Assembly (NCBI GenBank): GCA_034521975.1
Contig: JAXHLR010000005.1
Coordinates: 372,001-436,000, forward strand
Direction: 5' to 3'
Source: Acidimicrobiales bacterium
GTDB taxonomy: Bacteria; Actinomycetota; Acidimicrobiia; Acidimicrobiales; SKKL01
Length of the DNA: 64,000 nt
Shown: piece by piece, positions 24,427 through 41,283 of the stretch
Layout of the letters: each line of letters begins with the position of its first letter
How positions within the stretch are numbered: the stretch's first letter is position 1
The notes under the pieces: generated by a model
The model's database searches: none
Told to the model about the DNA's origin: nothing
The model's input: only the letters and a program-made list of their open reading frames with translations
Program-made: the position numbers and the translations under genes

Positions 24427-25265
24427 ACCTCGACCACCTCACCGACGCTGACCTCGACCGACTCGTCGACGGCGCGCGCCAGGGCCGGGGCGAGGGTGCC
24501 GAGCATGATGTGGTCCGCGAGCTGTCGGCCGAGCTGGCATTGGGTCCGGTTCCCGCTGCTCGCCAGGCGGCCACGGTCGCGGCGGCGGCCACCGCCGCCG
24601 GGGCGGCTGTTTCACCTCGCGCCGACAACGTGGTCGCCATGCGGCCCCGGGTGTCGAACCGGGCCAAGGCGGCGGTGGTGGCCTCGGTGGTCATGGTCGC
24701 CAACGTGGCGCCGCTGGCCGCCGACCCGCTGCCGATGAACGTCGCCGACCGCGGTGGGTTGCTCCACCACATCACGGGCCCGTTCGCCGACCCCGATCCT
24801 GGCTTCGATCACGGAGCCGGGGTGGGACGGGCCGTGGTGGTCAACACGACCGGAGAGTCCGTGCCGGCCGAGGCGCCCTCCACCACCGACGCTCCTGCTC
24901 CCACCGAGCCTCCGGTCACCGAGGCGCCCGACCCGACCGACGCGCCCGACCCGACCGAGGCGCCCGACCCGACCGATCCTCCGGTCACCCAGCCGGCCGA
25001 CGACTACGACTACTACACCGGCCCCGAGCTCAAGCCCGAGCTGCCCACCGACCCCGACGCCGAGCCGGTGCTGCCGCCGCCTCCGGCCGACGAGTGCTCC
25101 GACGGCGTCGAGGTCGATCCCGCCACCGGCGAGTGCCTGGTCGACGACGGCACCGGCAACGACGGCGACGGCCACGGTCAGGTGCTGCCGCCCCCGCCGC
25201 CGCCACCGGGCGACGACTCGGGTTCGGGCGACGACGAAGAGACGTCGGACACCACCGAGCCGTGA
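24423..25265 (+). CDS. Single-pass membrane protein with Pro/Thr/Asp stalk, putative anti-sigma factor
   Basis: 280 residues, coupled to the sigma gene by ATGA overlap. The cytosolic N-terminus (about 1-78) is helical and acidic ('MNLDHLTDADLDRLVDGARQ'). One membrane segment follows near 80-100 ('AKAAVVASVVMVANVAPLAA'). The outside part is very low in complexity: PDPT/APT repeats, then a small two-cysteine motif ('CSDGVEVDPATGECLVDD') and a proline run. The zinc-type HxxxCxxC anti-sigma motif is absent. Position and topology argue for a sensor or anti-sigma factor. A simple surface stalk protein remains possible. Confidence 0.7.
   Translation: MNLDHLTDADLDRLVDGARQGRGEGAEHDVVRELSAELALGPVPAARQAATVAAAATAAGAAVSPRADNVVAMRPRVSNRAKAAVVASVVMVANVAPLAADPLPMNVADRGGLLHHITGPFADPDPGFDHGAGVGRAVVVNTTGESVPAEAPSTTDAPAPTEPPVTEAPDPTDAPDPTEAPDPTDPPVTQPADDYDYYTGPELKPELPTDPDAEPVLPPPPADECSDGVEVDPATGECLVDDGTGNDGDGHGQVLPPPPPPPGDDSGSGDDEETSDTTEP
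24921..24974 (+). repeat. Three 18-bp tandem repeats encoding (E/D)APDPT
   Basis: Three adjacent 18-nt units, G-A-(G/C)-GCGCCCGACCCGACC, differ only at the third base. They lie inside the stalk region of the membrane protein and translate as EAPDPT, DAPDPT, EAPDPT. Near-identical units suggest copy-number slippage that would lengthen or shorten the extracellular stalk. Confidence 0.85.
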
Positions 25266-26381
25266 CCGCTGGCGGTGGCCGGCTGCACGTCTTCATCGGC
25301 ACCAAGGCCCAGTACATCAAGACCGCGCCGGTGCTGGCCCGCCTCGACGCGCGGGGTGTGCCCTACCGGTTGATCGACTCGGGCCAGCATGGCGCGCTCA
25401 GTGCGGGACTTCGCTCCGAGCTGGGGGTGCGCGACCCCGACCTGCTGCTGGGCGGCGACCGTGACATCACCTCCATCCCCCAGGCGATGATTTGGGCGGC
25501 GCGCATGGCCACCCGCCTGGTGTCGGGTCGCCGGGTGCGCGACGAGGTCTTCGGCGGCGACGGCGGCATCTGCGTGGTGCACGGCGACACCCCCTCGACC
25601 CTGCTGTCCACCTTGCTGGCCCGCCGGGCGGGGCTGACCGTGGCCCACCTCGAGGCCGGTCTGCGGTCGGGCAGCGTGTTCGACCCGTTCCCCGAGGAGG
25701 CGGTGCGGCTGGTGGTCATGCGGCTGTCGGGCCTGCTGTTCGCCCCCGACGACACCGCGGTCGCCAACCTGGCGGCCATGCGGGGGGTGCGGGGTCGGGT
25801 GGTGCCACTGGCGGGCAACACCTCGGCCGACGCGGTCGCCTGCCGCATCCGGCGGCGAAGCGGGGTCGGGTCCGGCGATCGTCACCATGCACCGGGTCGA
25901 GAACCTCCATCGCGCCGCCACCGTCGAGGCCCTCGTCGAGCTGGTGGTCGGGCTGGCCGCGGACCGTCCCGTCCGCTTCGTGGTGCACGGCCCCACCTGG
26001 GCCACGCTGCGGTCTGGCGGACACGACGTTGCGTTGCGCGACGCCGGGGTCGAGCTGGTCGATCTGGCGCCCCACGGCGAGTTCGTCGAGATGCTGCGGG
26101 CCGCTCCGCTGGTGATCACCGACGGCGGCTCGATCCAGGAGGAGTGCGCGCTGTTGGGGGTGCCCACGCTGTTGTGGCGGCGCCGCACCGAACGCTCCGA
26201 CGGGGTGGGCGACAACGTGGTGCTGTCGAACCTCGATCCCGGGGTGGCTGCCCGGTTCGTGGCCGATCCCGACCGCCACCGGCGCCCGCCCCGGTCGCGC
26301 GGCGAGGTCAGCCCGTCGGATCAGATCGTCGACGAGCTGGTGGCCGAGCTGGATGGAGCAGGTCGAGCACCTCGTCGTTGA
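25262..26381 (+). CDS. UDP-N-acetylglucosamine 2-epimerase-like (WecB family), one-base frameshift
   Basis: The first part, from GTG 25262 (overlapping the previous stop), shows 'LHVFIGTKAQYIKTAPVLAR', 'VVHGDTPSTLLSTLLARRAG', 'TVAHLEAGLRSGSVFDPFPE', 'GNTSADAV'. After an apparent extra base near 25841 the second frame gives 'AIVTMHRVENL', 'VITDGGSIQEECALLGVPTL' and 'TERSDGVGDNVVLSN', completing the epimerase fold at about 373 residues. The family makes UDP-ManNAc from UDP-GlcNAc for cell-wall polymers. UDP-ManNAc is a usual component of pyruvylated secondary wall polymers, which fits the convergent csaB-like gene. The last 74 nt overlap that gene on the other strand. Confidence 0.82.
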
Positions 26382-27405
26382 CCCGCTGGCGGGCCTGGAG
26401 ACGCCGGCGGGTCGTGGCCACCTGGTCGTGGTGGCCGGCGACCGCGGCGGCGGCGTCGGGGAGCGCGGTGGCCAGGGCGGGGTCGTCCCAGGCGAGTGTC
26501 CGGGCGCCGGCTCCCAGCTCGCCGGTCAGGGCGGCGACCTTCGGGTCATAGGAGAGGGCGACCAGCGGGCGGCCGGCCAGCACCGCGCCGATGGCGGCGT
26601 GGTAGCGCATGGCGATGACCACCTCGCCGGTGGCGATCTCGTCGAGCACGGTGTGCACGTCGGGTCGGGCCAGGGTGGCGGGTGCGCGCATGCGGGCGGC
26701 GACGGCCTGGTGGAGTGGGTGGTCGCGGACCGGGTCGAGGGCCACGAAGTGCACCGCCAGGCCGGTGCTGGCCGCGGCGGCGTCGACCCCGGCGGCCACG
26801 GCGTCGATGACGCGCTCGGGTGTCTGTTGGCGGCGGAGGTGCACGGGCAGGCGGCGCCGGGTCGAGGTCCAGGGGCGCAGCGACACCACCAGTCGCCCCT
26901 GGGGTGGGCCCGTGGGCGGTCCGAGGCCGAGGGCCAGGTCGGCGCCCAGGCGGGGGTGGGGGAGGCCGAGGCCGCGCAGAACGGTGGCGCTGGGCGCGTC
27001 GCGCACCGCGACCGCGTCGAGGCGGGGGAGCACCCGGCGCACGAGCGTGCGGCCGAGGTGGGTGTGGAGGGGTCCGGCGCCGAGGCCGACACCGACGGCG
27101 GGGATCGTGCGGGGTGCGGCCAGCAGGCGGGCGAGGTGGTAGGGGAGGTTGAGGTCGCTGGTGCGGTCCTGGAGCAGGCCGCCGCCGCCGAACACCACCG
27201 CCTCGCTGTGGCGCAGCGCGCCGAGGGCGTCGGGCCGGTGGGCGTCCACGGCATCCACCCCGTGGGTCGATTCGGTCGCCGCCGGGTCGACCGAGAGCAC
27301 GACGGGCTCGTGACCGTGGTCGCGCAACCGGGCGACGAGCGCGGCGAGGATGAGCTCGTCGCCGAGGTTGGTCGAACCGGCCCAGGCCGCGACGGTCACC
27401 CGCAT
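26308..27405 (-). CDS. csaB: Polysaccharide pyruvyl transferase, CsaB-like
   Basis: 365 residues of the pyruvyl transferase family. The N-terminus 'VTVAAWAGSTNLGDELILAA' holds the GDE(L/A) motif. 'AVVFGGGGLLQDRTSDLNLP' and the CsaB-like 'AVGVGLGAGPL' follow, then 'VAVRDAPSATVLRGLGL', 'LGADLAL', and 'VVIAMRYHAAIGAVLAGRPL' with the conserved RxHA segment. CsaB adds pyruvate ketals to the wall polymer that SLH domains recognise in Bacillus and other bacteria. Here it stands divergently next to four genes for SLH-like proteins, with a 173-nt shared promoter region. That is strong context for SLH-linked function; the acceptor sugar is unknown. Confidence 0.85.
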   Translation of the reverse strand: MRVTVAAWAGSTNLGDELILAALVARLRDHGHEPVVLSVDPAATESTHGVDAVDAHRPDALGALRHSEAVVFGGGGLLQDRTSDLNLPYHLARLLAAPRTIPAVGVGLGAGPLHTHLGRTLVRRVLPRLDAVAVRDAPSATVLRGLGLPHPRLGADLALGLGPPTGPPQGRLVVSLRPWTSTRRRLPVHLRRQQTPERVIDAVAAGVDAAAASTGLAVHFVALDPVRDHPLHQAVAARMRAPATLARPDVHTVLDEIATGEVVIAMRYHAAIGAVLAGRPLVALSYDPKVAALTGELGAGARTLAWDDPALATALPDAAAAVAGHHDQVATTRRRLQARQRVNDEVLDLLHPARPPARRRSDPTG

Positions 27406-27482
27406 CGGGCGGTGCTCCGCGGCTGGTGAGGTCGGTGGTCGGTTCTGGTGGCGTTGGCGTCGACGGCGATGCGCCGACGGTA

Positions 27483-27690
27483 CCCGCGTTGGTGTTCGGG
27501 CAGGTGTCCGGTAGCCGTGGGGAAGCCACGTCCTGGGCGTGGTGATCGAACGATCTTCGAGTGAGGAGCAGTTGTCCAGTGAGTGACGGATCCCCGATGG
27601 CGCGTTGGCGGCGCCGCACGGCGATGGTGATGGCGGCCATGCTCGCCGTCGCCCTGGTGCCGCTCGCCGGCCCCGCTGGTGCGCAGCCGG
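27483..27690 (+). repeat. 208-bp direct repeat, copy 1 (leader plus signal-peptide coding)
   Basis: It covers the region before SLH protein 1 and its first 37 or so codons. It starts CCCGCGTTGGTGTTCGGGCA, includes the ribosome site GAGGAG, and ends with GGTGCGCAGCCGG. Copy 2 is at 29137-29344; they differ at roughly a dozen positions, nearly all in the non-coding leader. Confidence 0.9.
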
Positions 27691-29123
27691 CGCCGCCGCC
27701 CGACATCGAGCCGTCGTGCGGGCACGTGGGCTCGGCGGGGTTCACCGACATCGGGGGCACCGGGTTCGAGGACGTCATCGACTGTCTCGCCGCCTTCGGT
27801 GTCACCACCGGCACCTCGGGCACCGAGTACTCGCCGGCGGTGCAGGTGCGCCGAAGCCAGATGGCGCTGTTCTACCACCGGGTCGGTGACGAGCTCGGAC
27901 TGGTCTTTGACACCAGCGACGCGGGCTTCAGCGACCTGGACGGGCTCGACCCGGCGTTCGTCGACGCGATCAACGCCATGGCCAACGAGGGGATCGTCCA
28001 GGGGACCTCGCCGGGCGAGTTCTCGCCCCAGGATCGCATCCGCCGCAGCCAGATGGCGCTGTTCATCGACCGGTTCCAGGACCGCGCGACCGGGTATGCC
28101 TACAGCGACGGTTTCTCCGGGTCCGACCTGTTCGACGACATCGGGTCGCTTGGCGCCGAGGCCCGTGGCGCAGTCAACGGGATCGGTTCGGTCGGCATCA
28201 CCCAGGGTGACGGCGCGGGCAGCTACGGGCCGTCGGGCTTTGTGTCCCGCCAGCAGATGGCGGCGTTCGTCGTGCGTCACCTGGCCGAGATCGGGCTGAC
28301 AGCGCCGGGTTCCGCGGTCTCGGGGAATCTCGTCGACTACGACTCCGGTGACAGCTACACGGTCTCCGACGGCGACCAGCTCGTCGACGTCGACATCGAA
28401 CCGGGCGACACCTTCTCGATCTCGGGCGGGGTGGTGTCGGAGGCCGACTTCGAGACGGCGCTCGCCTCGAGCACGACGGGTCTCGGCCACGTCATGGACC
28501 ACGATTCGGCGACCGGCGAGCACGACGTGACCCCACTCGACGACGACATGCTGGCCGCCCACGGGTTCGTGGTCGGTTCGGACCTCTTCCTGAACGTCGT
28601 GCCGATCGAGGCGAGCATCGACGAGCCGGTCTCGGGGGTGACGATGGTGGACTCGGCTGAGGTCGGCTGGGACGACATCGACGCCTACCGGGTGGACTCG
28701 GTGGACGCCACCGAGTCGGAGTTCCGCGACGAGGTCAGCTTCGGCGACACCGTGTCGATCGCCTACGTCGGCGGCGACCGGACCGTCTGGATCAACAACG
28801 GCGCGGTATCGGGGCCCATCGGCGACGAGACGAACATCGGATTCCTCGATCCAGGGGTCGAGATCGGGTTCCAGGTGGACTTCGGCGCCTTCGTCGGGGG
28901 CAACGACCTGGTCGCCGACGACTCGTTCGTGCTGACCCGCGACGGCTATGACGATGGTGTCCAGGAGTACACGGTGGACGGCAGTCTCTTCGACTATGAC
29001 GACATCGAGGATCTGCTGGTCAACGGGTACGGGGGCCAGACGATCGGCGAGCTCATCGATGACGGCCTCTCGGTCGAGTACTACCGCACCGGCGGGGTCG
29101 AGCACTTCGACTTCTCGTTCTGA
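27579..29123 (+). CDS. SLH-like repeat surface protein 1 (alpha type)
   Basis: 514 residues from GTG 27579, with GAGGAG 11 nt upstream. A signal peptide ('AMVMAAMLAVALVPLAGPAG', cleaved near 'GAQPA') leads into three SLH-like repeats (about 48-235). Each ends in a short hydrophobic box: 'VRRSQMALFYHRV', 'IRRSQMALFIDRF', 'VSRQQMAAFVVRH'. The rest is an acidic, beta-rich tail of unknown function with repeating elements such as 'IEPGDTFSISGG', 'VSFGDTVSIAYVGG' and 'LSVEYYRTGGVEHF'. The protein should bind wall polymer by its SLH part and expose the tail. It is most like protein 3 (31320), not its neighbour. Confidence 0.85.
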   Translation: MSDGSPMARWRRRTAMVMAAMLAVALVPLAGPAGAQPAPPPDIEPSCGHVGSAGFTDIGGTGFEDVIDCLAAFGVTTGTSGTEYSPAVQVRRSQMALFYHRVGDELGLVFDTSDAGFSDLDGLDPAFVDAINAMANEGIVQGTSPGEFSPQDRIRRSQMALFIDRFQDRATGYAYSDGFSGSDLFDDIGSLGAEARGAVNGIGSVGITQGDGAGSYGPSGFVSRQQMAAFVVRHLAEIGLTAPGSAVSGNLVDYDSGDSYTVSDGDQLVDVDIEPGDTFSISGGVVSEADFETALASSTTGLGHVMDHDSATGEHDVTPLDDDMLAAHGFVVGSDLFLNVVPIEASIDEPVSGVTMVDSAEVGWDDIDAYRVDSVDATESEFRDEVSFGDTVSIAYVGGDRTVWINNGAVSGPIGDETNIGFLDPGVEIGFQVDFGAFVGGNDLVADDSFVLTRDGYDDGVQEYTVDGSLFDYDDIEDLLVNGYGGQTIGELIDDGLSVEYYRTGGVEHFDFSF

Positions 29124-29136
29124 ACGCGTCGCGGTG

Positions 29137-29344
29137 CCCGCGTTGGTGTTCGGGCAGGTGTCCGGTACTTGTAGGGGAGCCACGTCGTGGGCGTGGTGAT
29201 CGCACGATCTTCGAGTGAGGAGCAGTTGTCCAGTGAGTGACGGATCCCCGATGGCGCGTTGGCGGCGCCGCACGGCGATGGTGATGGCGGCCATGCTCGC
29301 CGTCGCCCTGGTGCCGCTCGCCGGCCCCGCTGGTGCGCAGCCGG
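29137..29344 (+). repeat. 208-bp direct repeat, copy 2
   Basis: Second copy of the leader/signal-peptide block described at 27483-27690, again directly before an SLH-like gene. The coding half, from GTG onwards to the signal-peptide end, is practically identical to copy 1. The non-coding part has a cluster of changes around GTACTTGTAGGGG. Confidence 0.9.
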
Positions 29345-31194
29345 CACCCGCCCCCGACATCAGCGCGGCGTGCGCCGACGCTGAGAGCGCCGGGTTCACC
29401 GATACCGCCGGTACCGGTTTCGAGACCGAGATCGACTGTCTCGCCGGCTTCGGTGTCACCACCGGCACCACCGCCACCACCTACTCGCCTGCGGTGCAGG
29501 TGCGCCGCAGCCAGATGGCGCTGTTCTACTACCGGGTCGGCGTCGCCGCCGGTCTGACCTGGGACACCAGCGATGCCGGGTTCGGTGACCTTGCCGGTCT
29601 CGAGCCCGACTTCGTCGACGCCGTCAACGCGCTGGCCAACGCCGGCATCGTCCAGGGCACCTCGGCCACCGAGTTCTCGCCCCAGGACCGGATCCGTCGC
29701 AGCCAGATGGCGCTGTTCATCGATCGGTTCCAGGAGGAGCTGACCGGGTTCGGCTACAGCGACGGCTTCACCGGCTCCGATCTGTTCCCCGACATCGACA
29801 CCCTGAGCGCCGAGGCTCGCCTGGCGGTCAACGGCATCGGTTCGGTCGGCATCTCCCAGGGTGACGCCTCCGGCAACTATGTGCCGTCGGGGTTCGTGTC
29901 CCGCCAGCAGATGGCGGCGTTCATCGTCCGCCACCTGGCCGAGAACGGCCTCGAGGTCCCCGGCGCCGACGTCAGCGGTGTGATCATCGAGGCCAACGAC
30001 TTCGGTCCCGGCGATGCCGCGGCGACCGGTGACGAGTACATCATCTCCACCGGCGACGAGATCGTCACCGCCGAGGTCGGGGCTGATCCCGAGTTCTTCC
30101 TCGACGGCGTCTCGGCCACTGCCGCCGTGTTCGCCGGCAGCGCTGGCGTGGGCGACATGATCACCTGGAACGAGGATGCCGACACGCACGACGTCAGCCC
30201 GCAGGACGTGCTCACCGCCGGGTTCGTCGTCGGCGAGGAGCTGCACGCCGGTGGTGGTGGCTCGACCAACCTGATCGAGCCCTACTCCGGCGCGACGTTG
30301 GAGTTCAACACCGACCCCACCGACCCGACCGACTTCGGAGACTCGCTCGACCTCGACCGCAACACCAGCGGTGATTCCGCGGACGATCCGATCTATCGGG
30401 TCGGCAACCAGACCGTCGCCGACTACGACGCCTTCGCCGCCGAGATCAGCTTCGGCGACGTTCTCACCGTCGAGAACTACAACGACGCCGATGAGGCGGT
30501 CATCTACCGGCTCCAGAACGACAGCATCGTCGGCGGCTTCGCCGACACGGGCGACTACATCACCGGTCTCGGTAGCAACGACATCGAGATCCGCGTCGAC
30601 ACCGACGGTCGGGTCGAGTACGCCGCCGTCAGCCCCGCTGGCGTGACGCCCATCGGCAACGAGCCCGACACGTCCGACACCTGGTTCACCCTGACCGACA
30701 CGGGCTACGTGGATGGCGAGCAGCGCTTCACCGCCGAGGGCGCGCCCTACGACCACGACGGCATCGACGCCTGGCTCACCGGGGCACTCGACGACCTCGA
30801 GGGCGATGACTTCATCCGCTTGACCTACAGCCGCTCCGGCGGGGTCGAGCAGTTCGTCTTCACCGTGGTCGACGCCGAGGATCCCGCCGTCGAGCCCGGC
30901 AGCATCAGTGGCACCTTCGTCGCTGGCAGCGCCGTCTATCCGGGATCTGCCGGTGGCACCTCGGTGGACTTCCAGGTCCTGGTCGACGGTGATGTCTACG
31001 ACGTGATCGCGAGCTCGCCCGAGGCCGCCATCCTCGTCGACGGTGTCATCACTGCCGTCAACGAAGTGCCGACAGACGTCGATGCGGGTGCGTCGGTGAC
31101 CATCTCGGTCGAGGACGACAGCCAGATCAGCGACACCGCGACGCAGGTCGACGTCTACGCCGACGGCGATCTCGTCCTCATCACCAACCCGTAG
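29233..31194 (+). CDS. SLH-like repeat surface protein 2 (beta type)
   Basis: 653 residues from GTG 29233, same leader and signal peptide as protein 1. Three SLH-like repeats follow ('FTDTAGTGFETEIDCLAGFG', 'QGTSATEFSPQDRIRRSQMA', 'PSGFVSRQQMAAFIVRH'). The tail has the repeating elements 'DEYIISTGDEIVTAEV', 'PIYRVGNQTVADYDAFAAEI', 'ISFGDVLTVENYNDADEAVI' and 'IRLTYSRSGGVEQFVFTV'. It then has an extra C-terminal domain of about 100 residues absent from alpha types ('GSISGTFVAGSAVYPGSAGG' to 'GDLVLITNP'). It is very poor in cysteine and rich in Asp/Thr, as expected for an exported beta protein, perhaps calcium-dependent. It is paired with protein 4. Confidence 0.85.
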   Translation: MSDGSPMARWRRRTAMVMAAMLAVALVPLAGPAGAQPAPAPDISAACADAESAGFTDTAGTGFETEIDCLAGFGVTTGTTATTYSPAVQVRRSQMALFYYRVGVAAGLTWDTSDAGFGDLAGLEPDFVDAVNALANAGIVQGTSATEFSPQDRIRRSQMALFIDRFQEELTGFGYSDGFTGSDLFPDIDTLSAEARLAVNGIGSVGISQGDASGNYVPSGFVSRQQMAAFIVRHLAENGLEVPGADVSGVIIEANDFGPGDAAATGDEYIISTGDEIVTAEVGADPEFFLDGVSATAAVFAGSAGVGDMITWNEDADTHDVSPQDVLTAGFVVGEELHAGGGGSTNLIEPYSGATLEFNTDPTDPTDFGDSLDLDRNTSGDSADDPIYRVGNQTVADYDAFAAEISFGDVLTVENYNDADEAVIYRLQNDSIVGGFADTGDYITGLGSNDIEIRVDTDGRVEYAAVSPAGVTPIGNEPDTSDTWFTLTDTGYVDGEQRFTAEGAPYDHDGIDAWLTGALDDLEGDDFIRLTYSRSGGVEQFVFTVVDAEDPAVEPGSISGTFVAGSAVYPGSAGGTSVDFQVLVDGDVYDVIASSPEAAILVDGVITAVNEVPTDVDAGASVTISVEDDSQISDTATQVDVYADGDLVLITNP

Positions 31195-31235
31195 CCACTC
31201 TCGGGGATCGATCGGTCCCCGGTCGACCACGAGCA

Positions 31236-31271
31236 CGAGTGGGGGCCGGCCACGAGGCCGGCCCCCACTCG
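31236..31271 (+). terminator. Terminator-like hairpin after SLH protein 2
   Basis: A perfect 15-bp stem (31236-31250 with 31257-31271, including GAGTGGGGGCCGGC) closes a 6-nt loop CACGAG, 40 nt after the stop codon. There is no clear T-run. A related hairpin with the same loop letters follows SLH protein 4 at 35094, so the element travels with the beta-type genes. Confidence 0.7.
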
Positions 31272-31319
31272 CGCACTAGCGTGGGTGGGGCATCGACACG
31301 CGCGTGAGGGAGCGGGACG

Positions 31320-32874
31320 ATGAGCGGGTATCGAGCCCGGAGAACGACGGCGCCGATCGTGGCGGCCCTGGTCGCCGTCGTGTCGCTGTCGGCATCGGTG
31401 GTGGGGGTCGCGCCGGTCGGGGCCGACCCTGCGGCGCCGCCCGACACTGAGCCGGCCTGCGGTCACGTGGGATCGGCGGGCTTCACCGACACCGGGGGCA
31501 CCGGGTTCGAGGCGGTCATCGACTGCCTTGCCGCCTTCGGTGTCACCTCCGGCACCACCGCCACCACCTACTCGCCTGCGGTGCAGGTGCGCCGGAGCCA
31601 GATGGCGCTGTTCTACCACCGGGTCGGTGACGAGTTCGGCCTGCCCTGGGACACCAGCGATGCCGGGTTCGGCGACCTCGACGGACTCGACGCCGAGTTC
31701 GTCGACGCCATCAACGCGCTGGCCAACGCCGGCATCGTCAACGGCACCTCGGCCACCGAGTTCTCGCCCCAGGACCGCATCCGTCGCAGCCAGATGGCGT
31801 TGTTCATCGACCGCTTCCAGCAGCACGCGACGAGCGTCGCCTACAGCGACGGCTTCGCGGGCGACGACCTGTTCCCCGACATCTCGACCCTGGGCGCCGA
31901 GGCCCGGGCGGCGGTCAACGGCATCGGTTCGGTCGGCATCTCCCAGGGTGACGGCGACGGCGACTACGTGCCGTCGGGGTTCGTGTCCCGCCAGCAGATG
32001 GCGGCGTTCATCGTCCGCCACCTGGCCGAGAACGATCTGGCGGCGCCCGGCGCCCCGGTCGGGGGCGTCCTCGTCGCGTACACCTCGGGCAGCGGCTATG
32101 TCTTCTCCGACTGGAACAAGCTGGTCGAGGTCGACATCGAACCCGGCGACGCGTTCTTCATCGACGGGGAACCGGCGACCGAGGCCGCCTTCGAGGCCGC
32201 GCTGTCGTCGAGCACGACCGGGCTCGGCCACCAGATCGTCCACGAGGGGGCGAGCGACAGCCACGACGTGGTCCCTCGCGACGACGAGGAGCTCGCCCTC
32301 CACGGGTTCGTGGTCGGCCCCGACCTGGACCTGACGGCGTCGCCGATCGAGGCGAGCCTGGTCGAGCTGGTGTCGGGCATCACGCTGGTGGATTCGGCCG
32401 ACCTCGGCTGGGGCGACGTCGACACCTACCGGGTGGCGTCCACGACGGTCACCGAGTCCGAGTTCCTGGACGAGATCAACTTCGGCGACACCCTGGCCAT
32501 CGGTGACGAGGGCGGTGAGCGCATCGCCACCCTCAACAACCACAGCAGCAGGGCGTTCATCGGCGACGAGGCGAACATCGGTGCCCCGGACCCGGGGGTC
32601 CAGATCGCGGTGCAGGTCGACCACGGCGAGTTCGTTGGCGGCAACGACCTCGCCGGCGGTGACGCGTTCGTGCTCAGCCAGGCCGCCTACGACGCCGGTG
32701 AACAGGAGTTCAGCGTCGACGGCACGGCCTACGACTACACCGACATCGAGGACTTCCTGGTGAACGGCACCGGCGGCTCGACGATCGGCGAGCTGGTCGA
32801 CGGACGGGCTGTCGCTCCACTACCGCCGCGACGGCGGGGTCGAGCGCTTCGAGCTCTGGACCTCAGCGCCCTGA
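31320..32874 (+). CDS. SLH-like repeat surface protein 3 (alpha type), frameshift near 3' end
   Basis: About 517 residues after correction. The signal peptide is unlike its neighbours ('TTAPIVAALVAVVSLSASVV'), but the mature part is homologous to protein 1: three SLH-like repeats ('ACGHVGSAGFTDTGGTGFEA', 'VQVRRSQMALFYHRVGDEFG', 'ALANAGIVNGTSATEFSPQD') and the alpha tail ('STTGLGHQIVHEGASDSHDV', 'NFGDTLAIGDEGGER'). Near 32800 an extra G in 'gacggacggg' shifts the frame. The open frame then runs on to 32978 through arginine-rich nonsense. Removing it restores 'LSLHYRRDGGVERFELW' and a stop at 32872-32874, matching the end of protein 1. The ATG has GAGGGAG upstream. Confidence 0.82.
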
Positions 32875-33000
32875 AACCGTCCGAGAGAAATTCCGGCCGA
32901 GGTGGTACCCCGTTGCGATCCGGTGACGGTTACGGACGTGTGAGCCTCACCTGCGGGTGGGGCGAGCGGCGAGCGTGACGGTCCCGTGACGCCAGGGTCC

Positions 33001-33030
33001 TTGATCCTGGTTGTCGCAGGTCTGTAACGT
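33001..33030 (+). promoter_or_regulatory. Possible promoter of SLH protein 4
   Basis: TTGATC (33001-33006) and TAACGT (33025-33030) are spaced by 18 nt in the 277-nt gap before the TTG start at 33152. This would give an untranslated leader of about 115 nt. It differs from the 208-bp leader of proteins 1 and 2. Matches to consensus are partial, so this is tentative. Confidence 0.3.
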
Positions 33031-33151
33031 TCGCACCGACTGTGCTCGGGTGTTTCCCGTTGCAGTCAGATGGGCAGGGCTCATCGACCAGGCCGATCCG
33101 GCCGACATCGGAGCCCCTTGCCGGTTTCCCACCACAACGAGGAGAAATGCT

Positions 33152-35042
33152 TTGAGTCAACACTCATTTGCGACGTCACTGCGGCGCCGCATCGCGATCG
33201 TGATGGCGGCCATGCTCGCCCTCACGCTGGTGCCGCTCGCCGGCCCCGCTGGTGCGCAGCCGGCACCCGCCCCCGACATCAGCACCTGCGATGACGCACC
33301 TGATGCCGGGTTCACCGATACCGCCGGTACCGGCTTCGAGACCGAGATCGATTGTCTCGCCGCCTTCGGAGTCACCACCGGCACCACCGCCACCACCTAC
33401 TCGCCTGCGGTGCAGGTGCGTCGGAGCCAGATGGCGCTGTTCTACTACCGCGTCGGCACCGCTGCCGGCCTGACCTGGGACACCAGCGATGCCGGGTTCA
33501 CCGACCTCGCCGGTCTCGACGCCGACTTCGTCGACGCCATCAACGCGCTGGCCAACGCCGGCATCGTCCAGGGCACCTCGGCCACCGAGTTCTCGCCCCA
33601 GGACCGCATCCGTCGTAGCCAGATGGCGCTGTTCATCGATCGGTTCCAGGAGGAGCTGACCGGGTTCGCCTACAGCGACGGCTTCACCGGCGACGACCTG
33701 TTCCCCGACATCTCGACCCTCGACGCCGAGGCTCGCCTCGCCGTCAACGGCATCGGCTCGGTCGGCATCTCCCAGGGTGATGCCTCCGGCAACTACGTGC
33801 CGTCGGGCTTCGTGTCCCGCCAGCAGATGGCAGCGTTCATCGTCCGCCACCTGGTCGACAACGGCTTCGAGGTCCCCGGCGCCGATGTCAGCGGCGTCAT
33901 CATCGAGGCCTACGATCCCACGCCTGGCGCAGGGAATCCGAACTACATCTTCTCGACCGGCGACGAGGTCGTCGAGGTTGAGGTCGGCGACGATCCCACC
34001 TTCATGGTGACCGGTGTGCCCGCGACGGAGACCGTCTTCGGCGCCTCCGCCCAGCTTGGTGCGATGGTCACCTACAACGAGGACGCCGACACCCACGACG
34101 TCACCCCGCAGGACGTCCTGGCGGCGGGCTTCACCGTCGGTTACGGCCTCGACCTCACCGGCCCGACGACCAACCTGATCGAGCCCTATTCGGGTGTCGA
34201 GATGGGATTCCTCGCTGATCCAGACGACAACACCTCCGGCACCACCGTGCTTGAGCTGGACAACAACACCAGCGGCGATGCTGCGGACGCTCCGGTCTAC
34301 CGCGTCGGCAACAACACGGTGACCTATGCAGTGTTCGAGGCGAACATCAGCTTCGGCGACACTCTCACCGTCGAGAACTATGACGATGGCGACGCTGACA
34401 CCGACGTCATCTACCGGCTCCAGAACGGAGACATCAGCGGCGGCGCCGACGTGGTCGACGCCACAGATGATCCGATCCTCATGACGATCGAGACCAACGA
34501 GTGGAACGTCGGCAACGACTTGGCCGGCGCCAGCCCATTCCAGTTGGACTCCGGTGAATACACTGCCGGGACCCAGCGCTTCAGCGCCGACGGGACCCCC
34601 TACAACCTGGCAGGCATCGGTACCTGGCTCGACGACGCGATCGACGGCCTGGGCACAGACGACTACGTGCGGGTGACCTACACCCGGTCTAGTGGCGTCG
34701 AGGACTTCGCCTTCACCGTCGTCGAAGCCGACGAGGATGACGAAGCCGAGGCCGGCTCGATCACCGGCACCTACGTCGGTGGCACTGCCTCCAACGGCAC
34801 TCTGGGTGGAGCCGCCGGATCCTTCGACATCCTCGTCGATGGCGACGTCGTCACGGTCGAGGTTTCCATGCCTGATGCGGGCATCCTTGTCGACGGCGTC
34901 ATCACGTCGGTTGATGAGATCGCAGGCGCGATCGATGCTGGCGCCTCGGTCACTGTCATGGTCGAGGATGACGGTCAGCTTGAGACCGATCCCGTCACGG
35001 CATCCGCAGGACGGCGATCTCGTCCTCATCACCAACCCGTAA
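33152..35042 (+). CDS. SLH-like repeat surface protein 4 (beta type), frameshift near 3' end
   Basis: About 629 residues after correction. The TTG start at 33152 is set by GAGGAG 7 nt upstream and by alignment of the signal peptide ('AIVMAAMLALTLVPLAGPAG') with proteins 1 and 2. Three SLH-like repeats are followed by a beta-type tail close to protein 2: 'NEDADTHDVTPQDVLAAGF', 'TTNLIEPYSGVEMGF', 'PVYRVGNNTVTYAVFEANIS', 'VRVTYTRSSGVEDFAFTVVE', and the extra domain 'GSITGTYVGGTASNGTLGGA'. Around 35000 a one-base change moves the frame. The other frame gives the ending 'DGDLVLITNP' with TAA at 35040, identical to protein 2, so the open frame running to 35062 is wrong. Confidence 0.84.
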
Positions 35043-35093
35043 GGGAACCGCTACCAACGTGAAGGTCTGACCTTCACCGCATAGCAACACCCT

Positions 35094-35134
35094 CGAGGAG
35101 CGGGGGCTGGCCACGAGCTGGCCCCCGCTCCTCG
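35094..35134 (+). terminator. Terminator-like hairpin after SLH protein 4
   Basis: A 14-bp stem pairs CGAGGAGCGGGGGC (35094-35107) with its complement (35121-35134) around a 13-nt loop containing TGGCCACGAGCTG. The CACGAG centre and G/C-rich core resemble the hairpin at 31236-31271. It sits 51 nt after the corrected stop. Confidence 0.65.
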
Positions 35135-35223
35135 CGTCGGGATCGCAGCGGGCCGGCGACCCGGCGCAGCCACCTCCCCATCGACCGGCACCGCTGGTGT
35201 CTCCACGGAGGAACGTGCCCACC

Positions 35224-37080
35224 ATGACCCCCACCCCCAGATCTCGCCGCCGGGCCGCCACCCTCGGCCTCGCCGCGGCCCTCACCATCGCCCTCGTCGC
35301 CGCCGGAGCACCCCTCGCCCCGGTCGCCGCCGACGAGCTCGAGCCCTACGCCGACCCGGTCCCCCACGCCACCGGCTACCACGTCACCTCGCGCTCCGAA
35401 CCCACCCCCGGGATCGAGTACCTGCGCCTGCAGCGCGGCTCGCCCCAGGCCGAGGTCCACGCCCTGCGCCTCGCCCCCTCGGTGCTGGCCCGCCTCGAGA
35501 TCGTCACCGCGTCGGACCACCAGGCCCGCACCCCCACCCGCGAGACCACCACCTCGATGTGTCGCCGGGTCCGCTGCGTCGCCGCGATCAACGGCGACTA
35601 CTACCACCTCGCCGACGGGCTCCCCGCCGGGCCCGTCGTCACCGGCGGCGAGCTGCGCTTCGGCATCGGCGACATCACCCACGGCGCCGTGCTCATCGAC
35701 GGCGGCCGCCGCTTCAGCGCCGTCACCACCGACGAGCTCACCTGGACCGTGCGGGTCCAGACCGGCGCCGAGGTCGACCTCACCCTCGACCGGATCAACC
35801 GCAGCATCCGCGACGGTGGCACCGCGCTCTACACCAGCCGCTACGGCCCCAGCACCGGCACCCCGGCCGGCACCCTGGAGGTCACCGCCCGCCTCGCCGA
35901 CGGCGCCGACCATCCGGTGGGCCAGGCCCCACTCGAGATCGTCGACCGCAGCACCGACGGCGACAGCCCCATCCCGGCCGGCCACGTCGTCATCGCCGCC
36001 AGGGGCGACCGCACCCACGACCTCGAGCTGATGTGGGCCCACGGCGCCGCCGGGCTCGCCTCGGCGATCCTCACCGTCGACATCGGCCCCACCCACCACG
36101 CCATCGGCGGCTCGCCGGTGCTGCTGCGCAACGGCCGCTACCACTTCCCGTGGGAAGACCCCGCGCCGGCCACCCAAGGCCGCCGGCCCCGCACCATCAT
36201 CGGCTGGACCCCCGCCGGCGAGGTGCTGCTCGTCACCGTCGACGGCGACCGGCCCGGCTACAGCGTCGGCATCAACCTGCCCGAAGCCGCCCGGCTGCTG
36301 GCCCGCCTCGGCGCCATCGAAGGCGTCATGCTCGACGGCGGCGCCTCCTCGACGATGGTGATCGCCGGCCAGGTCCGCAACCGGCCCACCGGCGGTGAAC
36401 GGGCCGTCGGCGGCGCCGTGGTCGTGCTGTCGGAGTGGGGGCGCAACATCTCCACCGCCGCGGCCCGCAGCATCGACCCCGCCTGCCCCGACCCGGTGGT
36501 GCCCGCCAGCACCTTCGACGACCTCGGCACCGCCAACCCGCATGCCCCCGCGGTCAACTGCGTCGCCTGGTGGCAGATCACCCAGGGGGTCACGCCCCTG
36601 CGCTACGCACCGACCGGGGTGGTCACCCGCGGCCAGATGGCCACCTTCCTCGTCCGGTTCCTCGAAGCCTCCGGGGCCACCGTCCCCGACACCGCGCCCG
36701 CCGCCTTCCCCGACGCCGCCGGCCACTCCCACGCCCCCAACATCAACCGGCTGGCCGCCATGGGCATCGTCGGCGGGTTCTCCGACGGCCTCTACCGCCC
36801 CGACGCCCCCGTCACCCGGGCCCAGATGGCGTCGTTCATCGCCCGCACCTGGGAGCACCGCCTCGGCACCCCGCTGCCCGCCGACGCCGACTTCTTCGAG
36901 GACGACTCGCTCGACACCCACGAGCGCAACATCAACGGCATCGCCCAGGCCGGCATCGCCGCCGGGGTCACCGCCGTCGCCTACGACCCGGCCAGCCCGG
37001 TCCGCCGCGACCAGATGGCCACCTTCCTCGCCCGGTCCATGGCCGAGCTCGTCGCCGGAGGGGTCACCGCACTGCCATGA
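35224..37080 (+). CDS. Phosphodiester glycosidase (NAGPA-type) with three SLH repeats
   Basis: 618 residues. After the signal peptide ('LGLAAALTIALVAAGAPLAP') comes a phosphodiester glycosidase domain to about residue 410. It shows 'VAAINGDYYHL', 'AVLIDGGRRFSAVTTDELTW', 'AIGGSPVLLRNGRYHFPWED', 'RRPRTIIGWTPAGEVLLVTV' and the characteristic 'GAIEGVMLDGGASSTMVIAG'. The family includes the enzyme that removes GlcNAc from GlcNAc-1-phosphate diesters. Three C-terminal SLH repeats end in 'VTRGQMATFLVRF', 'VTRAQMASFIART' and 'VRRDQMATFLARS'. Outside the cell it could trim phosphodiester-linked sugars of the wall polymer. The ATG at 35224 was chosen with GGAGG upstream; GTG 35215 is possible. It is first of an overlapping operon. 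Confidence 0.87.
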   Translation: MTPTPRSRRRAATLGLAAALTIALVAAGAPLAPVAADELEPYADPVPHATGYHVTSRSEPTPGIEYLRLQRGSPQAEVHALRLAPSVLARLEIVTASDHQARTPTRETTTSMCRRVRCVAAINGDYYHLADGLPAGPVVTGGELRFGIGDITHGAVLIDGGRRFSAVTTDELTWTVRVQTGAEVDLTLDRINRSIRDGGTALYTSRYGPSTGTPAGTLEVTARLADGADHPVGQAPLEIVDRSTDGDSPIPAGHVVIAARGDRTHDLELMWAHGAAGLASAILTVDIGPTHHAIGGSPVLLRNGRYHFPWEDPAPATQGRRPRTIIGWTPAGEVLLVTVDGDRPGYSVGINLPEAARLLARLGAIEGVMLDGGASSTMVIAGQVRNRPTGGERAVGGAVVVLSEWGRNISTAAARSIDPACPDPVVPASTFDDLGTANPHAPAVNCVAWWQITQGVTPLRYAPTGVVTRGQMATFLVRFLEASGATVPDTAPAAFPDAAGHSHAPNINRLAAMGIVGGFSDGLYRPDAPVTRAQMASFIARTWEHRLGTPLPADADFFEDDSLDTHERNINGIAQAGIAAGVTAVAYDPASPVRRDQMATFLARSMAELVAGGVTALP

Positions 37081-37127
37081 CCGCCCCCGCCCTGCCACCC
37101 CGGACCCGATCGTGGGACCATTGGTCG

Positions 37128-38538
37128 ATGCGACCCCTGGCCAGGACACTGACCGCGGCCGTGGTCGCGCTGTTGGTGGTGCTGGCGACCGCGGCGGTCG
37201 CCCCGGCCGCCACCACCGACGCCGACCGCGACACCGTCACCGCCCAGGTGGTCGGCGGCACCGACGCCGAACCCGACACCGCCCCCTGGGTCGTGGCCGT
37301 CATGCGCGCCGGGCAGGCCAGCGCCTATGACCGTCAGGTGTGCGGCGGCACCCTCGTCGCCCCCGGGTGGGTCCTCACCGCCTCGCACTGCGTGGTCGAC
37401 CCCGCCACCGGGGATGCGCTCGCCCCCGCCCAGGTGGCCATCGGCGCCGGCAGCACCGACCTCGACGCCCCCGAGCTGGTCGAGCTGGCGGTCGACGAGG
37501 TGCTGGTCCACCCCGATTCCGCCGAGTGCGGACCCCTCGAAGGCCGCGAAGCCTTCGAGTGCCGGGCCCCGGTCGACGCCGCCCTCCTGCGGGTGGCCGG
37601 CACCGACGCCGTGGCATCGACCATCACCCTCGCCCGGCCCCACCAGCGCCACCTGCTCGCCGCCGGCACCACCGCCACCGTCTACGGCTGGGGTGCGCTC
37701 GACGCCGCCACCACCAGCTTCCCCACCCGGCTGCAGGCCGCCTCGGTGACCGATCCAGACCCACGAGCGCTGCGAGGGCGACTACCCCGGCGTCTACGAC
37801 CCCGCCACCATGCGCTGCACCGCCGCCCCCGACGAGGACGCCCCGGCCGACGCCTGCACCGGCGACAGCGGCGGTCCGCTCGTCACCACCGACGACCGTG
37901 GCCGGGCCCGCCAGGTCGGCATCGTCAGCTTCGGCACCGCCCTGCGGTGCGCCGAGACCCCCGCGGTGTACCTCACCACCGGCGCGGTGCACGCCTGGAT
38001 CGGCTCGGTCACCGGCATCGTCACCTTCTCCGACCTGGTCGGCACCCCCCACGCCGACGCCATCATCGCCCTCGCCGAGCGCGGCATCGCCTCCGGACGC
38101 ACCGACGGCACCTACGGGCCCAACCAGCCCATCACCCGGGCCCAGATGGCCACCGTGCTCACCCGGGCCCTCGGCCTGACCCCCACCCCCGCCGACTTCG
38201 ACGACGTGCCCGCCGACCACCCCCACAACGCCAGCATCGGCGCCGTGGTCGCCGCCGGCATCACCTCCGGGCGCGCCGACGGCACCTTCGGGCCCGACGC
38301 GGCGGTCAACCGGGGCCAGATGGCCACCTTCCTGCTGCGAGCCCTCAGCTTGGACCCCCAGCCCGCCGATGTACCCGACGTGGACATCAGTCACCCCCAT
38401 TACCACAGCATCGGAGCGATCATGGACGCCGGCATCTCCACCGGGCGCGCCGACGGCACCTTCGCCCCCGAGCTGACCGTCACCCGAGGCCAGCTCGCCA
38501 GCTTCCTCACCCGAGCGCTGGGAGTGCCCGTTGGCTGA
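37128..38538 (+). CDS. Trypsin-like serine protease (S1) with SLH repeats, one-base frameshift
   Basis: The first frame gives a signal peptide ('LTAAVVALLVVLATAAVAPA') and an S1 domain: 'AQVVGGTDAEPDTAPWVVAV', the catalytic His in 'VLTASHCVV', and Asp in 'APVDAALLRVAG'. Near 37750 a one-base change is needed to continue as 'HERCEGDYPGVYDPATMRC' and the catalytic Ser in 'ACTGDSGGPLVTT'. Three SLH repeats follow ('ITRAQMATVLTRA', 'VNRGQMATFLLRA', 'VTRGQLASFLTRA'). After correction it is about 469 residues with the triad intact. An in-frame ATG at 37077 overlapping the previous stop is an alternative start. It overlaps the subtilase gene by 8 nt. Confidence 0.85.
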
Positions 38539-40399
38539 CCCCGACCGTCCCACCCGCCGCACGACTGCCCTCGCCGCCACCACCGCGCTCCTGCTGGTGC
38601 TGGCCACCGTCGCCGCGTCGGCCCCGGCCACCGCCCAGTCCGGCCCCCCGCCCGCCGAGACCGGTCCGGTGGTGGCCCTCGTCGCCGGCCCCGACGGCAC
38701 CGCCACGATCGAACACACCCCCAACGGCCGACCCGGCACGCTCGCCCAGGGGCCCGAGGTCACGTACCAGGCCCTCACCGAGATGAGCAACGACATCATG
38801 CGGCCCATCCAGTGGTCGCTCGACCGGGTCGGGGCCGAGTCGGTGTGGACCCACGCCGACGGGCGCCGCCAGGACAACGGCTCCCCGATCCTGATCGCCG
38901 TGGTCGACAGCGGCGTCGACCGCGACCACCCCGACCTGGCCGGACAGATCCGCACCGGCGGCAACTTCGTCGGCTTCGTCCCCGTCGCCGGCGAGCCCGT
39001 CGCCCCCGTCGACTCCGACGTCAGCGACGGCCTCGGCCACGGCACCCACGTCACCGGCATCATCGCCGCCGTCGCCGACAACAACATCGGCATCGCCGGC
39101 ATGTCGCCCGGCGTGTCGATCCTGCCGGTGCGGGTCCTCGACGACTCCGGCCAGGGCACCAACACCCAACTCGCCGCCGGCATCCTGTGGGCGGTGTCCC
39201 AGGGCGCCGACATCATCAACCTCAGCCTCGGCACCACCAGCGAGGACCCGGTCGTGCAGGCCGCAGTGCAGCACGCCGTCGACCACGACGTGGCCGTGCT
39301 CGCCGCCGTGGGCAACTGCGGCTCCAGCGGCAGCGGCGTCTGCGGCGGCACGCTCAACGCCCCGGTGTTCCCCGCAGCCTGGCCCGAGACCGTCGCCATC
39401 GCCGCCACCTCGAGCCCCACCCGAAGCGACCCCTGGCTCGACGAGCGGGCCACCTTCTCCACCCAGGCCACATGGGTCGACCTCGCCGCCCCCGGCGTCG
39501 ACATCCACGGCACCACCCCCGGCGGGGCCTACTCCGCGGAGTCCGGCACCTCCATGGCCGCCGCGGTCGCCACCGGCACCGCCGCGCTGGTGTGGGCCCG
39601 CTATCCCGCCGACTCGGCGACCGGGCTGCGCGACCGTCTCTACCGCAGCGCCCTCGACCTCGGCCCCACCGGGTCCGACCAGTCGTTCGGACACGGCCTC
39701 GTCCAGCCCCTCGACGCCGTCACCGCCGCCGGCGAGGTGATCCCCCTCGCCGGTCTCGACCCCGCCGAACGGGCCGCCATCCTGCTCGACCAGGCGTGCC
39801 CCGCCGGACTCGCCACCCCCGGCTTCGACGACGTCGACCCCGACGCCCCCCACGGCGACGCCATCGGCTGCGTGGCCGCATGGAGCATCGCCCTCGGCGT
39901 CGGCGACGGCCTCTACGCCCCCAACCGGGCGGTCACCCGCGCCCAGATGGCCACCTTCCTCGACCGCCTCATCACCACCACCGACGGCCGGGTCCCCTCC
40001 CGCCGGGGCGCGGTCCCCGACGCCTTCGGCGACGACGACGGAGCCGACCACGAAGGGGCCATCAACCGCCTCGCCGCCGCCGGGATCGTCGCCGGGCGCG
40101 ACGACGGCACCTACGGTCCCGCTGACCCCGTCACCCGCGCTCAGATGGCCACCTTCCTCGACCGCACCGCCACCTACCGCGCCACCACCCCGCTGCCCAC
40201 CGCCGAGCACACCTACACCGACACCGACGGGTCGACCCACGAGCCGGCCATCGCCCGGGTCACCGCGGCCGGCATCGCCCTCGGGGTCGGCGACGGCCTC
40301 TACGCCCCCAACCGGGCGGTCACCCGCGCCCAGATGGCCACCTTCCTCGGTCGCACCACCGGGCGCCTGGTCGCCGAGGGCCACACCACCCACCCGTGA
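38531..40399 (+). CDS. Subtilisin-like serine protease (S8) with SLH repeats
   Basis: 622 residues from TTG 38531. After the signal peptide ('LAATTALLLVLATVAASAPA') the S8 domain has the triad Asp in 'IAVVDSGVDRDHPDLAG', His in 'GLGHGTHVTGIIAAVADNNI', and Ser in 'SAESGTSMAAAVATGTAALV'. The oxyanion-hole Asn is in 'LAAVGNCGSS'. The usual Pro after GTSMAA is replaced by Ala. Three SLH repeats close the protein ('VTRAQMATFLDRL', 'VTRAQMATFLDRT', 'VTRAQMATFLGRT'). It would be a wall-anchored surface protease, perhaps processing the SLH proteins encoded upstream. Gene overlaps on both sides indicate one co-translated operon. Confidence 0.92.
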   Translation: MADPDRPTRRTTALAATTALLLVLATVAASAPATAQSGPPPAETGPVVALVAGPDGTATIEHTPNGRPGTLAQGPEVTYQALTEMSNDIMRPIQWSLDRVGAESVWTHADGRRQDNGSPILIAVVDSGVDRDHPDLAGQIRTGGNFVGFVPVAGEPVAPVDSDVSDGLGHGTHVTGIIAAVADNNIGIAGMSPGVSILPVRVLDDSGQGTNTQLAAGILWAVSQGADIINLSLGTTSEDPVVQAAVQHAVDHDVAVLAAVGNCGSSGSGVCGGTLNAPVFPAAWPETVAIAATSSPTRSDPWLDERATFSTQATWVDLAAPGVDIHGTTPGGAYSAESGTSMAAAVATGTAALVWARYPADSATGLRDRLYRSALDLGPTGSDQSFGHGLVQPLDAVTAAGEVIPLAGLDPAERAAILLDQACPAGLATPGFDDVDPDAPHGDAIGCVAAWSIALGVGDGLYAPNRAVTRAQMATFLDRLITTTDGRVPSRRGAVPDAFGDDDGADHEGAINRLAAAGIVAGRDDGTYGPADPVTRAQMATFLDRTATYRATTPLPTAEHTYTDTDGSTHEPAIARVTAAGIALGVGDGLYAPNRAVTRAQMATFLGRTTGRLVAEGHTTHP

Positions 40400-41283
40400 G
40401 CCGCCGGTGGCGCGACCTCGCCACCCGGGCGCTCACCGCCCGCAGGGCCGGAGGCCACCGCGTGCTCTACCTGGTGGCCGCGGCCGCGTTCGTCGCCGCC
40501 GCGCTCATCGGCTGGAGCGCCCTACCCGACCTCGACCAGGATCCCCGCTGGTGGCTGATCGCGGTGGGGGTGGTGGCCGCCGCGCCGCTCACCGCCCTGG
40601 TCAACGGCGCCGAGTACGCCGTCACCGCCCGCCTCGTCGGCTACCGGGTCGGCACCGTCGAAGCCACCCGCATCGCCATCCTCGCCTCGGCCGCCAACCT
40701 GTTGCCCCTCCCCGGAGCGGTCGCGGTGCGGGCCCAGGCGCTGCGCCGCCGCGGGGCCACCACCGGCCGGGCCGTGTGGGCCACCGCCGTCGCCGGCGCG
40801 GTGTGGGTCGGGGTCGCCCTGCTCGCCGCCGGGATCCTGCAACTCGACGGCGACCACCGGGCTGCGGCGCTGACCGCCACGCTGCTCGGCGTGGTCGTCG
40901 TCGCCGGGGCCGCGGTGGCGGCCTGGACCCTCACCCGCGGTCTGCCCGTCGGCCCCGTGCTCGCCCTGGTGGCCGTCGAGGTCGCCTCGGTGGCGGTGGG
41001 GGCCGGGCGCTACCTGCTGGTCGTCCACGCCCTGGGTTTCGCCATCGAACCCCGCCAGGCCATCGCCCTGGCCGTCGCCGGGATCCTCGCCTCGCTCATC
41101 GGGATCCTCCCCGGCGGGCTCGGCGTCCGCGAGCTTCTGGCCGGCGCCATCGCCCCGCTGGTGGGCCTGGCCGCCTCGGTCGGGGTCATCGGCTCGGCGG
41201 TCGACCGCCTCATCGGCCTGCCCGCCCTGGCCGTCATGGCCCTGGCCGTCTCGGCCCGGCCCCCACCCGACGCCGATCAGTAG
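40396..41283 (+). CDS. Lysylphosphatidylglycerol synthase TM region-like membrane protein
   Basis: A 295-residue membrane protein with about eight hydrophobic helices, of the UPF0104/YbhN (LPG synthase transmembrane) group. Typical features are 'ATRIAILASAANLLPLPGAV', 'AGILASLIGILPGGLGVREL' and the ensuing 'AGAIAPLVGLAASVGVIGSA', the conserved glycine/proline loop of the family. The soluble aminoacyl-transfer domain of true MprF proteins is missing, so lipid flipping or transport is more likely than lysine transfer. It begins with GTG overlapping the subtilase stop, so it is made with the SLH enzymes. A paralogue is at 55091-56092. Confidence 0.75.
   Translation: MSRRWRDLATRALTARRAGGHRVLYLVAAAAFVAAALIGWSALPDLDQDPRWWLIAVGVVAAAPLTALVNGAEYAVTARLVGYRVGTVEATRIAILASAANLLPLPGAVAVRAQALRRRGATTGRAVWATAVAGAVWVGVALLAAGILQLDGDHRAAALTATLLGVVVVAGAAVAAWTLTRGLPVGPVLALVAVEVASVAVGAGRYLLVVHALGFAIEPRQAIALAVAGILASLIGILPGGLGVRELLAGAIAPLVGLAASVGVIGSAVDRLIGLPALAVMALAVSARPPPDADQ

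Follow-up and report, generated by a model that had tools for sequence, protein, structure and literature searches.

Surface proteins with S-layer homology (SLH) domains are anchored in Bacillus and Paenibacillus through a pyruvylated wall polymer, the pyruvate of which is added by CsaB. In Paenibacillus alvei CsaB, R148, R306, H308 and K328 make up the phosphoenolpyruvate (PEP) binding site (PMC10435577), and in SpaA the pyruvate is bound by Gly29 and Arg43 of the SLH domain (PMC6081394). The genes csaB, tagA, tagO, slhA and spaA lie in one P. alvei cluster (PMC6801904), and a UDP-N-acetylglucosamine (UDP-GlcNAc) 2-epimerase, MnaA, is the source of N-acetylmannosamine (ManNAc) in P. alvei (PMC11464976). 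Pyruvylated wall polymers of several Actinobacteria have been chemically described, mainly as chemotaxonomic markers without known function (PMC6801904). The CsaB–SLH system is hardly studied in the actinobacterial lineage treated here; no paper linking "S-layer homology" with Acidimicrobiia was found in the literature searched, with subscription papers mostly outside its scope. Here we analysed a stretch of 64,000 nucleotides, "the window", from an Acidimicrobiales bacterium (assembly GCA_034521975.1, contig JAXHLR010000005.1, positions 372,001 to 436,000), in which a csaB-like gene adjoins seven genes for SLH proteins. This island very likely encodes the whole of the organism's machinery for SLH-type surface display and is a lineage variant of the CsaB–SLH wall-polymer anchor. 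That a pyruvylated wall polymer is the SLH anchor had been suggested in a first-pass annotation of the window, and it is well supported by the SLH fold, the binding residues, the PEP-site residues, the co-occurrence of the two components and the gene neighbourhood.

SLH repeats and the CsaB-like enzyme

The seven exported proteins with three SLH-like repeats each that the first-pass annotation had listed (P1–P7, Table 1) were all recovered with a local profile at 27561–40399, and the pyruvyltransferase gene heads the run divergently, as it had stated. The SLH genes of the genome are confined to this one 13-kb cluster, since a whole-genome profile search found no SLH domain outside the island in the 3.30-Mb genome. 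PF04230 genes number two, the island copy and a WcaK-like gene at 52499–53791. When single repeats were searched against Pfam SLH (PF00395), a check that had been recommended, 15 of the 21 reached the cut-off and the others fell under it. Searched against the PDB, a profile of the SLH trimers retrieves SbsB and Sap, with E-values as low as 3e-21. The AlphaFold2 model of the P7 trimer, computed with 47 related trimers, has a predicted local distance difference test score (pLDDT) of 93.4 and a predicted template-modelling score (pTM) of 0.90, and it has the pseudo-threefold fold of SLH trimers. A Foldseek comparison with 3pyw gives a template-modelling (TM) score of 0.82 with an E-value of 1.8e-10, and every one of the 15 matches at E<1e-3 is an SLH structure of Sap or SpaA, in many cases with pyruvylated ManNAc bound. 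SLH-Gly29 and SLH-Arg43 are kept in every one of the 21 repeats. A pair of cysteines brackets the start of the first repeat in six of the seven proteins (C53/C75 in P1, C430/C455 in P5 and C423/C447 in P7) and also in csaB-positive relatives, and is predicted to form a disulfide stapling SLH1.

The CsaB-like enzyme passes the PF04230 cut-off (120.8 against 25.3 bits), and its alignment to the CsaB family TIGR03609 is full-length (7–293 of 301). In an alignment with Bacillota homologues, its R135, R267, H269 and K289 fall on R148, R306, H308 and K328 of P. alvei CsaB, and these residues do not vary among the five actinobacterial homologues that were aligned first. The R, R, H and K of the PEP site are thus common to this enzyme and TIGR03609 CsaB, which differ in the score and at two acceptor-site positions discussed below. 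The enzyme probably adds the pyruvate that the SLH proteins grip.

Compared with the systems of B. anthracis and P. alvei, the SLH trimer fold, Gly29/Arg43 and the ketal-pyruvyltransferase PEP site are the same, and the placement of csaB beside SLH genes and, presumably, a UDP-GlcNAc 2-epimerase as ManNAc source are shared with P. alvei. Different from the Bacillus and Paenibacillus loci, the neighbours here are the UDP-GlcNAc 2-epimerase and a flippase-like LPG_synthase_TM protein, and all SLH genes stand in one island; no tagA or tagO was seen adjacent, no genome search for them having been made. The CsaB acceptor loop, SLH-Trp13 and the predicted SLH1 cysteine pair also distinguish the island from those systems.

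Co-occurrence and csaB neighbourhoods in relatives

Genomes and loci carry our own labels below, G and L respectively. Among 148 genomes of the order, six have both SLH and CsaB, three SLH only, none CsaB only and 139 neither (Fisher p=6e-9), and among 396 genomes of the phylum the corresponding counts are 32, 16, 15 and 333 (p=6e-24); both tests ignore phylogenetic relatedness. Within the family, SLH and a strong CsaB are both found in G000 and G002 and neither in G001 and G003, although G003, from the same genus, is a 91% complete draft in which the absence of the island could stem from incompleteness. A scan of the collection with a two-sequence alignment named CsaB relatives mainly in Acidimicrobiia and in metagenome-assembled genomes (MAGs) of Nitriliruptoraceae and Egibacteraceae. 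A deltaproteobacterial MAG also has a CsaB-like protein less than 10 kb from genes with SLH repeats (L059).

Twenty csaB loci were compared, comprising the window, five genomes and 14 named contigs, many of them truncated. SLH genes are present in 10 of these loci, an epimerase in 10 and a flippase-like gene in 14. The survey of csaB–SLH adjacency that the first-pass annotation had called for found SLH genes adjoining csaB in nine other genomes or loci (G002, G037, G086, G119, L046, L047, L048, L051 and L052). The gene order of the window is that of L047, with SLH genes and csaB divergent and the epimerase convergent with csaB; in the window the epimerase gene overlaps the csaB tail. The UDP-ManNAc-type epimerase noted earlier is present, although it lies outside the interval then drawn for the island and is split between frames. 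Its N-terminal half passes the Epimerase_2 (PF02350) cut-off with 79.4 bits, and it shares 51–72% identity with epimerases encoded next to csaB in eight further loci. The intact relatives in L047, L048 and L052 score 131–149 bits for wecB, below the TIGR00236 equivalog cut-off of 210. In L052, an Egibacteraceae MAG, a UDP-GlcNAc 2-epimerase is fused in frame to CsaB (8903–11062), with a stop and a local frame disturbance in the CsaB part. A CsaB-like domain also opens a 1189-aa protein in genome G014 (L023:9350–12919), the remainder of which resembles two glycosyltransferases by eye, and a wecB-type epimerase adjoins it.

The membrane protein downstream of P7 had been described as LPG-synthase-like and grouped with the enzyme genes; the family assignment stands, as the PF03706 cut-off is passed, whereas from its relatives it is better read as a flippase-like csaB partner than as a member of an enzyme operon. 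An overlap of 4 nt between csaB and the flippase-like gene is seen in L045, L049, L054 and L056, and in G037 and G119 the csaB-linked gene is the sole PF03706 match in the genome. In a tree, the window protein and eight other csaB-linked proteins form one clan (support 0.989) that includes no paralogue from G000, G001, G002, G003 or G014, some distant paralogues under the profile threshold not having been placed. It has several transmembrane segments in common with the LPG_synthase_TM/UPF0104 family, from which it differs in belonging to a distinct clade whose members, among the loci examined, occur only next to csaB. A second candidate for export is a polytopic Wzx-like protein upstream of the island, which may be a polymer flippase; its homologues (38–42% identity) occur within ~10 kb of csaB in L024, L025 and L026, and a ThiF/rhodanese homologue joins the Wzx-like gene near csaB in L024 and L025.

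Taken together, the genomic data link SLH surface proteins with a CsaB-type pyruvyltransferase in both Acidimicrobiia and Nitriliruptoria, so that the anchoring function can be tested directly in the phylum Actinobacteria. Two conserved csaB partners also emerge, the epimerase, once fused to CsaB, and the flippase-like protein. More tentatively, and with considerable doubt, the csaB-specific LPG_synthase_TM clade of Acidimicrobiia and Nitriliruptoria might be dedicated to translocating the pyruvylated precursor of the wall polymer, forming with the epimerase an anchor-making module unlike the arrangement in Bacillota, to which DUF4214 (see below) would add a second attachment module interchangeable with SLH.

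Proposed mechanism and alternative explanations

We propose that the UDP-GlcNAc 2-epimerase would supply UDP-ManNAc, and that the CsaB-like enzyme, using PEP, would attach pyruvate as a ketal to a sugar of ManNAc type in a lipid-linked wall polymer. Export of the polymer may be aided by the flippase-like LPG_synthase_TM protein and/or the Wzx-like transporter, and the exported polymer would then be linked to the wall. The seven secreted proteins would dock on it non-covalently, with the grooves of the SLH trimer holding the pyruvate via Gly29 and Arg43. P1–P4 may form the coat, and P5–P7 would be displayed as enzymes.

Several observations weigh against this reading. The TIGR03609 score of 200.8 bits is 12 bits under the equivalog cut-off of 213.1, for which reason the enzyme is named CsaB-like and not filed in the equivalog. 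Two residues of the P. alvei CsaB acceptor site, Y14 and F16, presumably correspond to A9 and S11 here, as judged by alignment with Paenibacillus and Pontibacillus homologues. Where Sap and SpaA have SLH-Trp13 stacking on the sugar, most repeats here have His or Phe, either at that position or beside it; Trp13 is not universal in the SLH family, and SbsB carries Tyr at the aligned place. The epimerase gene is frameshifted in this assembly, near 25855–25880. Finally, the first-pass annotation had held that relatives keeping SLH proteins on the cell without any pyruvyltransferase would speak against the anchor, and this applies in part: G008, G048 and G099 carry SLH genes without any PF04230 protein. 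In the phylum sample, 8 of the 48 genomes with SLH give no TIGR03609 match at 1e-5. The coupling of SLH and CsaB is not absolute. Since the acceptor-loop residues are unlike those of Paenibacillus, the pyruvylated sugar is only presumably of ManNAc type. The CsaB-like enzyme might pyruvylate the anchor on another sugar, such as a hexose or a uronic acid, with the epimerase serving a different step; the altered acceptor loop and the His or Phe in place of a Trp13 that would stack on the ManNAc ring point that way, and actinobacterial wall polymers carry pyruvate on galactose (Gal), 2-keto-3-deoxynononic acid (Kdn), glucuronic acid (GlcA), N-acetylgalactosamine (GalNAc) or ribitol (PMC6801904). 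We consider this unlikely given that a UDP-GlcNAc 2-epimerase, the product of which is UDP-ManNAc, recurs beside csaB and is in one case part of the same polypeptide. Alternatively, the SLH proteins might bind peptidoglycan or a non-pyruvylated polymer, with the enzyme decorating another polysaccharide and its linkage to them incidental. The three relatives without PF04230 proteins would fit this, as would the diderm SLH proteins OmpM and Deinococcus SlpA, which are reported to tether the outer membrane to the wall (PMC10628300 and PMC9388160). The significant co-occurrence in order and phylum, the repeated adjacency and the full conservation of Gly29 and Arg43 here nevertheless make it improbable, and in G008, the clearest pyruvyltransferase-free relative, Gly29 is lost from 16 of 24 repeats (mostly to Pro or Ala), compared with 6 of 167 in csaB-positive genomes. 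This eroded pyruvate-binding glycine in an SLH-rich genome free of pyruvyltransferase is a natural test of the Gly29 model. A general rule that Gly29 loss tracks csaB loss is not claimed, because one genome only supports it: G008 keeps 8 of 24 and csaB-positive genomes 161 of 167, but other csaB-poor genomes keep 26 of 28. The repeats of G048 and G099 retain Gly29, and several of the other csaB-poor genomes carry weaker PF04230-type matches.

Within the proposed anchor, P1–P4 are the best candidates for surface coat or S-layer subunits. They have an isoelectric point (pI) of 4.05–4.15, SLH repeats at the N-terminus and acidic C-terminal regions, that of P1 with pI 4.05 and no lysine, and they form two paralogue pairs in ABAB order; P1 and P2 are 85% identical in DNA over 825 nt spanning the upstream region and the N-terminal stretch. 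An SLH trimer at the N-terminus that leads into a large acidic region, here in tandem paralogues, is anatomy common to known S-layer proteins such as SpaA and Sap. The chance is nevertheless close to even that these four use the same anchor as divergent adhesins or as structural proteins of the surface: no enzyme domain was recognised in them and Pfam gave no match outside SLH, sequence by itself allows no inference of a lattice, and the AlphaFold2 model of full-length P1 with four paralogues (pLDDT 44) lacks the quality needed to recognise the C-terminal fold, so that no fold is claimed for these regions. A further alternative concerns the four frame changes within ~12 kb of otherwise intact genes (near 25860, 32800, 34995 and 37755), which, if real, would point to partial decay or inactivation of the island. 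Their density is what speaks for this. Recognisable coding sequence of the expected family is kept on both sides of each break, with the His, Asp and Ser motifs of the P6 protease present across two frames and both epimerase halves within the identity range given above, as in uncorrected base-calling errors of a draft genome; the frameshifts are therefore probably assembly errors, and real decay is quite unlikely. Read in the alternative frame, P3 would stop near 32875 and P4 at ~35042. The true start of P4 is probably downstream of 33011.

Displayed enzymes, flanking genes and other features

Three SLH proteins had been said to carry enzymes, and the NAGPA, Trypsin and Peptidase_S8 domains, like LPG_synthase_TM, indeed exceed their Pfam cut-offs; in the trypsin–SLH gene, however, a frameshift near 37745–37765 leaves the protease and SLH parts of P6 in no single open reading frame (ORF). 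From their domains, P5–P7 would be a wall-displayed phosphodiester glycosidase, a trypsin-like protease and a subtilase. P5 matches PDB entries 6ozd, 3ohg and 6pku as well as Sap, aligning with solved structures of the NAGPA/DUF2233 family (PF09992), from which it differs by the SLH fusion; such a glycosidase is not found beside csaB in relatives. Trypsin and S8 domains joined to SLH do occur. The overlaps of 4–8 nt reported earlier are confirmed, at 37077–37080 (4 nt), 38531–38538 (8 nt) and 40396–40399 (4 nt). In contrast, the notion of a dedicated trimming and processing system is not well supported, as it goes back to domain names only. That the SLH phosphodiester glycosidase edits the polymer is a speculation drawn solely from its domain, and is left as such because NAGPA is absent from every related csaB locus examined, for which reason it was also rejected as a partner conserved with csaB. 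The P7 subtilase was considered for a role in defence, and this too was rejected, PADLOC giving only generic subtilase and weak IetS matches.

Table 1. Features of the island and its flanks in window coordinates (ORF list with Pfam and NCBIfam scans).
Feature	Coordinates	Strand	Evidence or remarks
ThiF/rhodanese gene	20009–21256		Neighbour of Wzx-like gene
Polytopic membrane protein, ~12 transmembrane segments, putatively Wzx-like	21354–22667	+	No Pfam match; homologues near csaB in relatives
CAP + DUF4214 exported protein, flanking	22743–23669	+	CAP 37.4 bits, DUF4214 94.7 bits
Non-hydrolysing UDP-GlcNAc 2-epimerase-like, frame-split	~25160–26381	+	Epimerase_2 79.4 bits on N-terminal part
CsaB-like polysaccharide (ketal) pyruvyltransferase	26308–27405	-	PF04230 120.8 bits, TIGR03609 200.8 bits, PEP-site residues
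P1: signal peptide, 3 N-terminal SLH, acidic C-terminal region	27561–29123	+	SLH 77.9 bits
P2: signal peptide, 3 SLH, acidic C-terminal region	29215–31194	+	SLH 61.0 bits
P3: 3 SLH, P1-related C-terminal region, 3' end frameshifted	31320–32978	+	SLH 66.3 bits
P4: 3 SLH, P2-related C-terminal region, 3' end frameshifted	33011–35062	+	SLH 65.3 bits
P5: phosphodiester glycosidase (NAGPA), 3 C-terminal SLH	35197–37080	+	NAGPA 106.6 bits, SLH 61.9 bits
P6: trypsin-like protease, 3 SLH, frame-split	37077–38538	+	Trypsin 60.6 bits on N-terminal part; three SLH in ORF 37810–38538
P7: subtilase (Peptidase_S8), 3 C-terminal SLH	38531–40399	+	S8 167.6 bits, SLH 102 bits
Flippase-like membrane protein (LPG_synthase_TM, PF03706)	40396–41283	+	37.9 bits, cut-off 33.4
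DUF4214 + CAP exported protein, flanking	41277–42845	-	DUF4214 80 bits, CAP 27.4 bits
SpoIID-like + DUF4214 protein, flanking	43009–44778	+	SpoIID structure matches; DUF4214 at 44554–44760

DUF4214, which is almost without mention in the literature searched, sits on the CAP and SpoIID proteins that flank the island, and relatives carry CAP–SLH and SpoIID–SLH proteins beside csaB (SpoIID–SLH in L022 and L052). Elsewhere in the order, exported proteins of SLH-free genomes combine it with trypsin, Amidase_2, M23 and metallophosphatase domains (L081–L100). By this domain company, DUF4214 may be a second or alternative surface-attachment module. Replacement of SLH by exclusion was tried and rejected, as the two do not clearly avoid each other: DUF4214 is present in 2 of 9 SLH genomes and in 19 of 139 others. 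Opposite content does occur within one genus, in which G001 (L081–L088) lacks SLH but yields at least 13 matches to DUF4214, and G002 has 66 SLH matches and no DUF4214.

No Rfam match was found in the 64-kb window. Directly upstream of the epimerase, an ECF-type (extracytoplasmic function) sigma factor and an overlapping small gene (23596–25265) are a possible regulator of the island. Further downstream, 49444–58275 holds the WcaK-like second pyruvyltransferase, an FrhB-type protein and another LPG_synthase_TM gene (55091–56092), which make up a separate polysaccharide locus.

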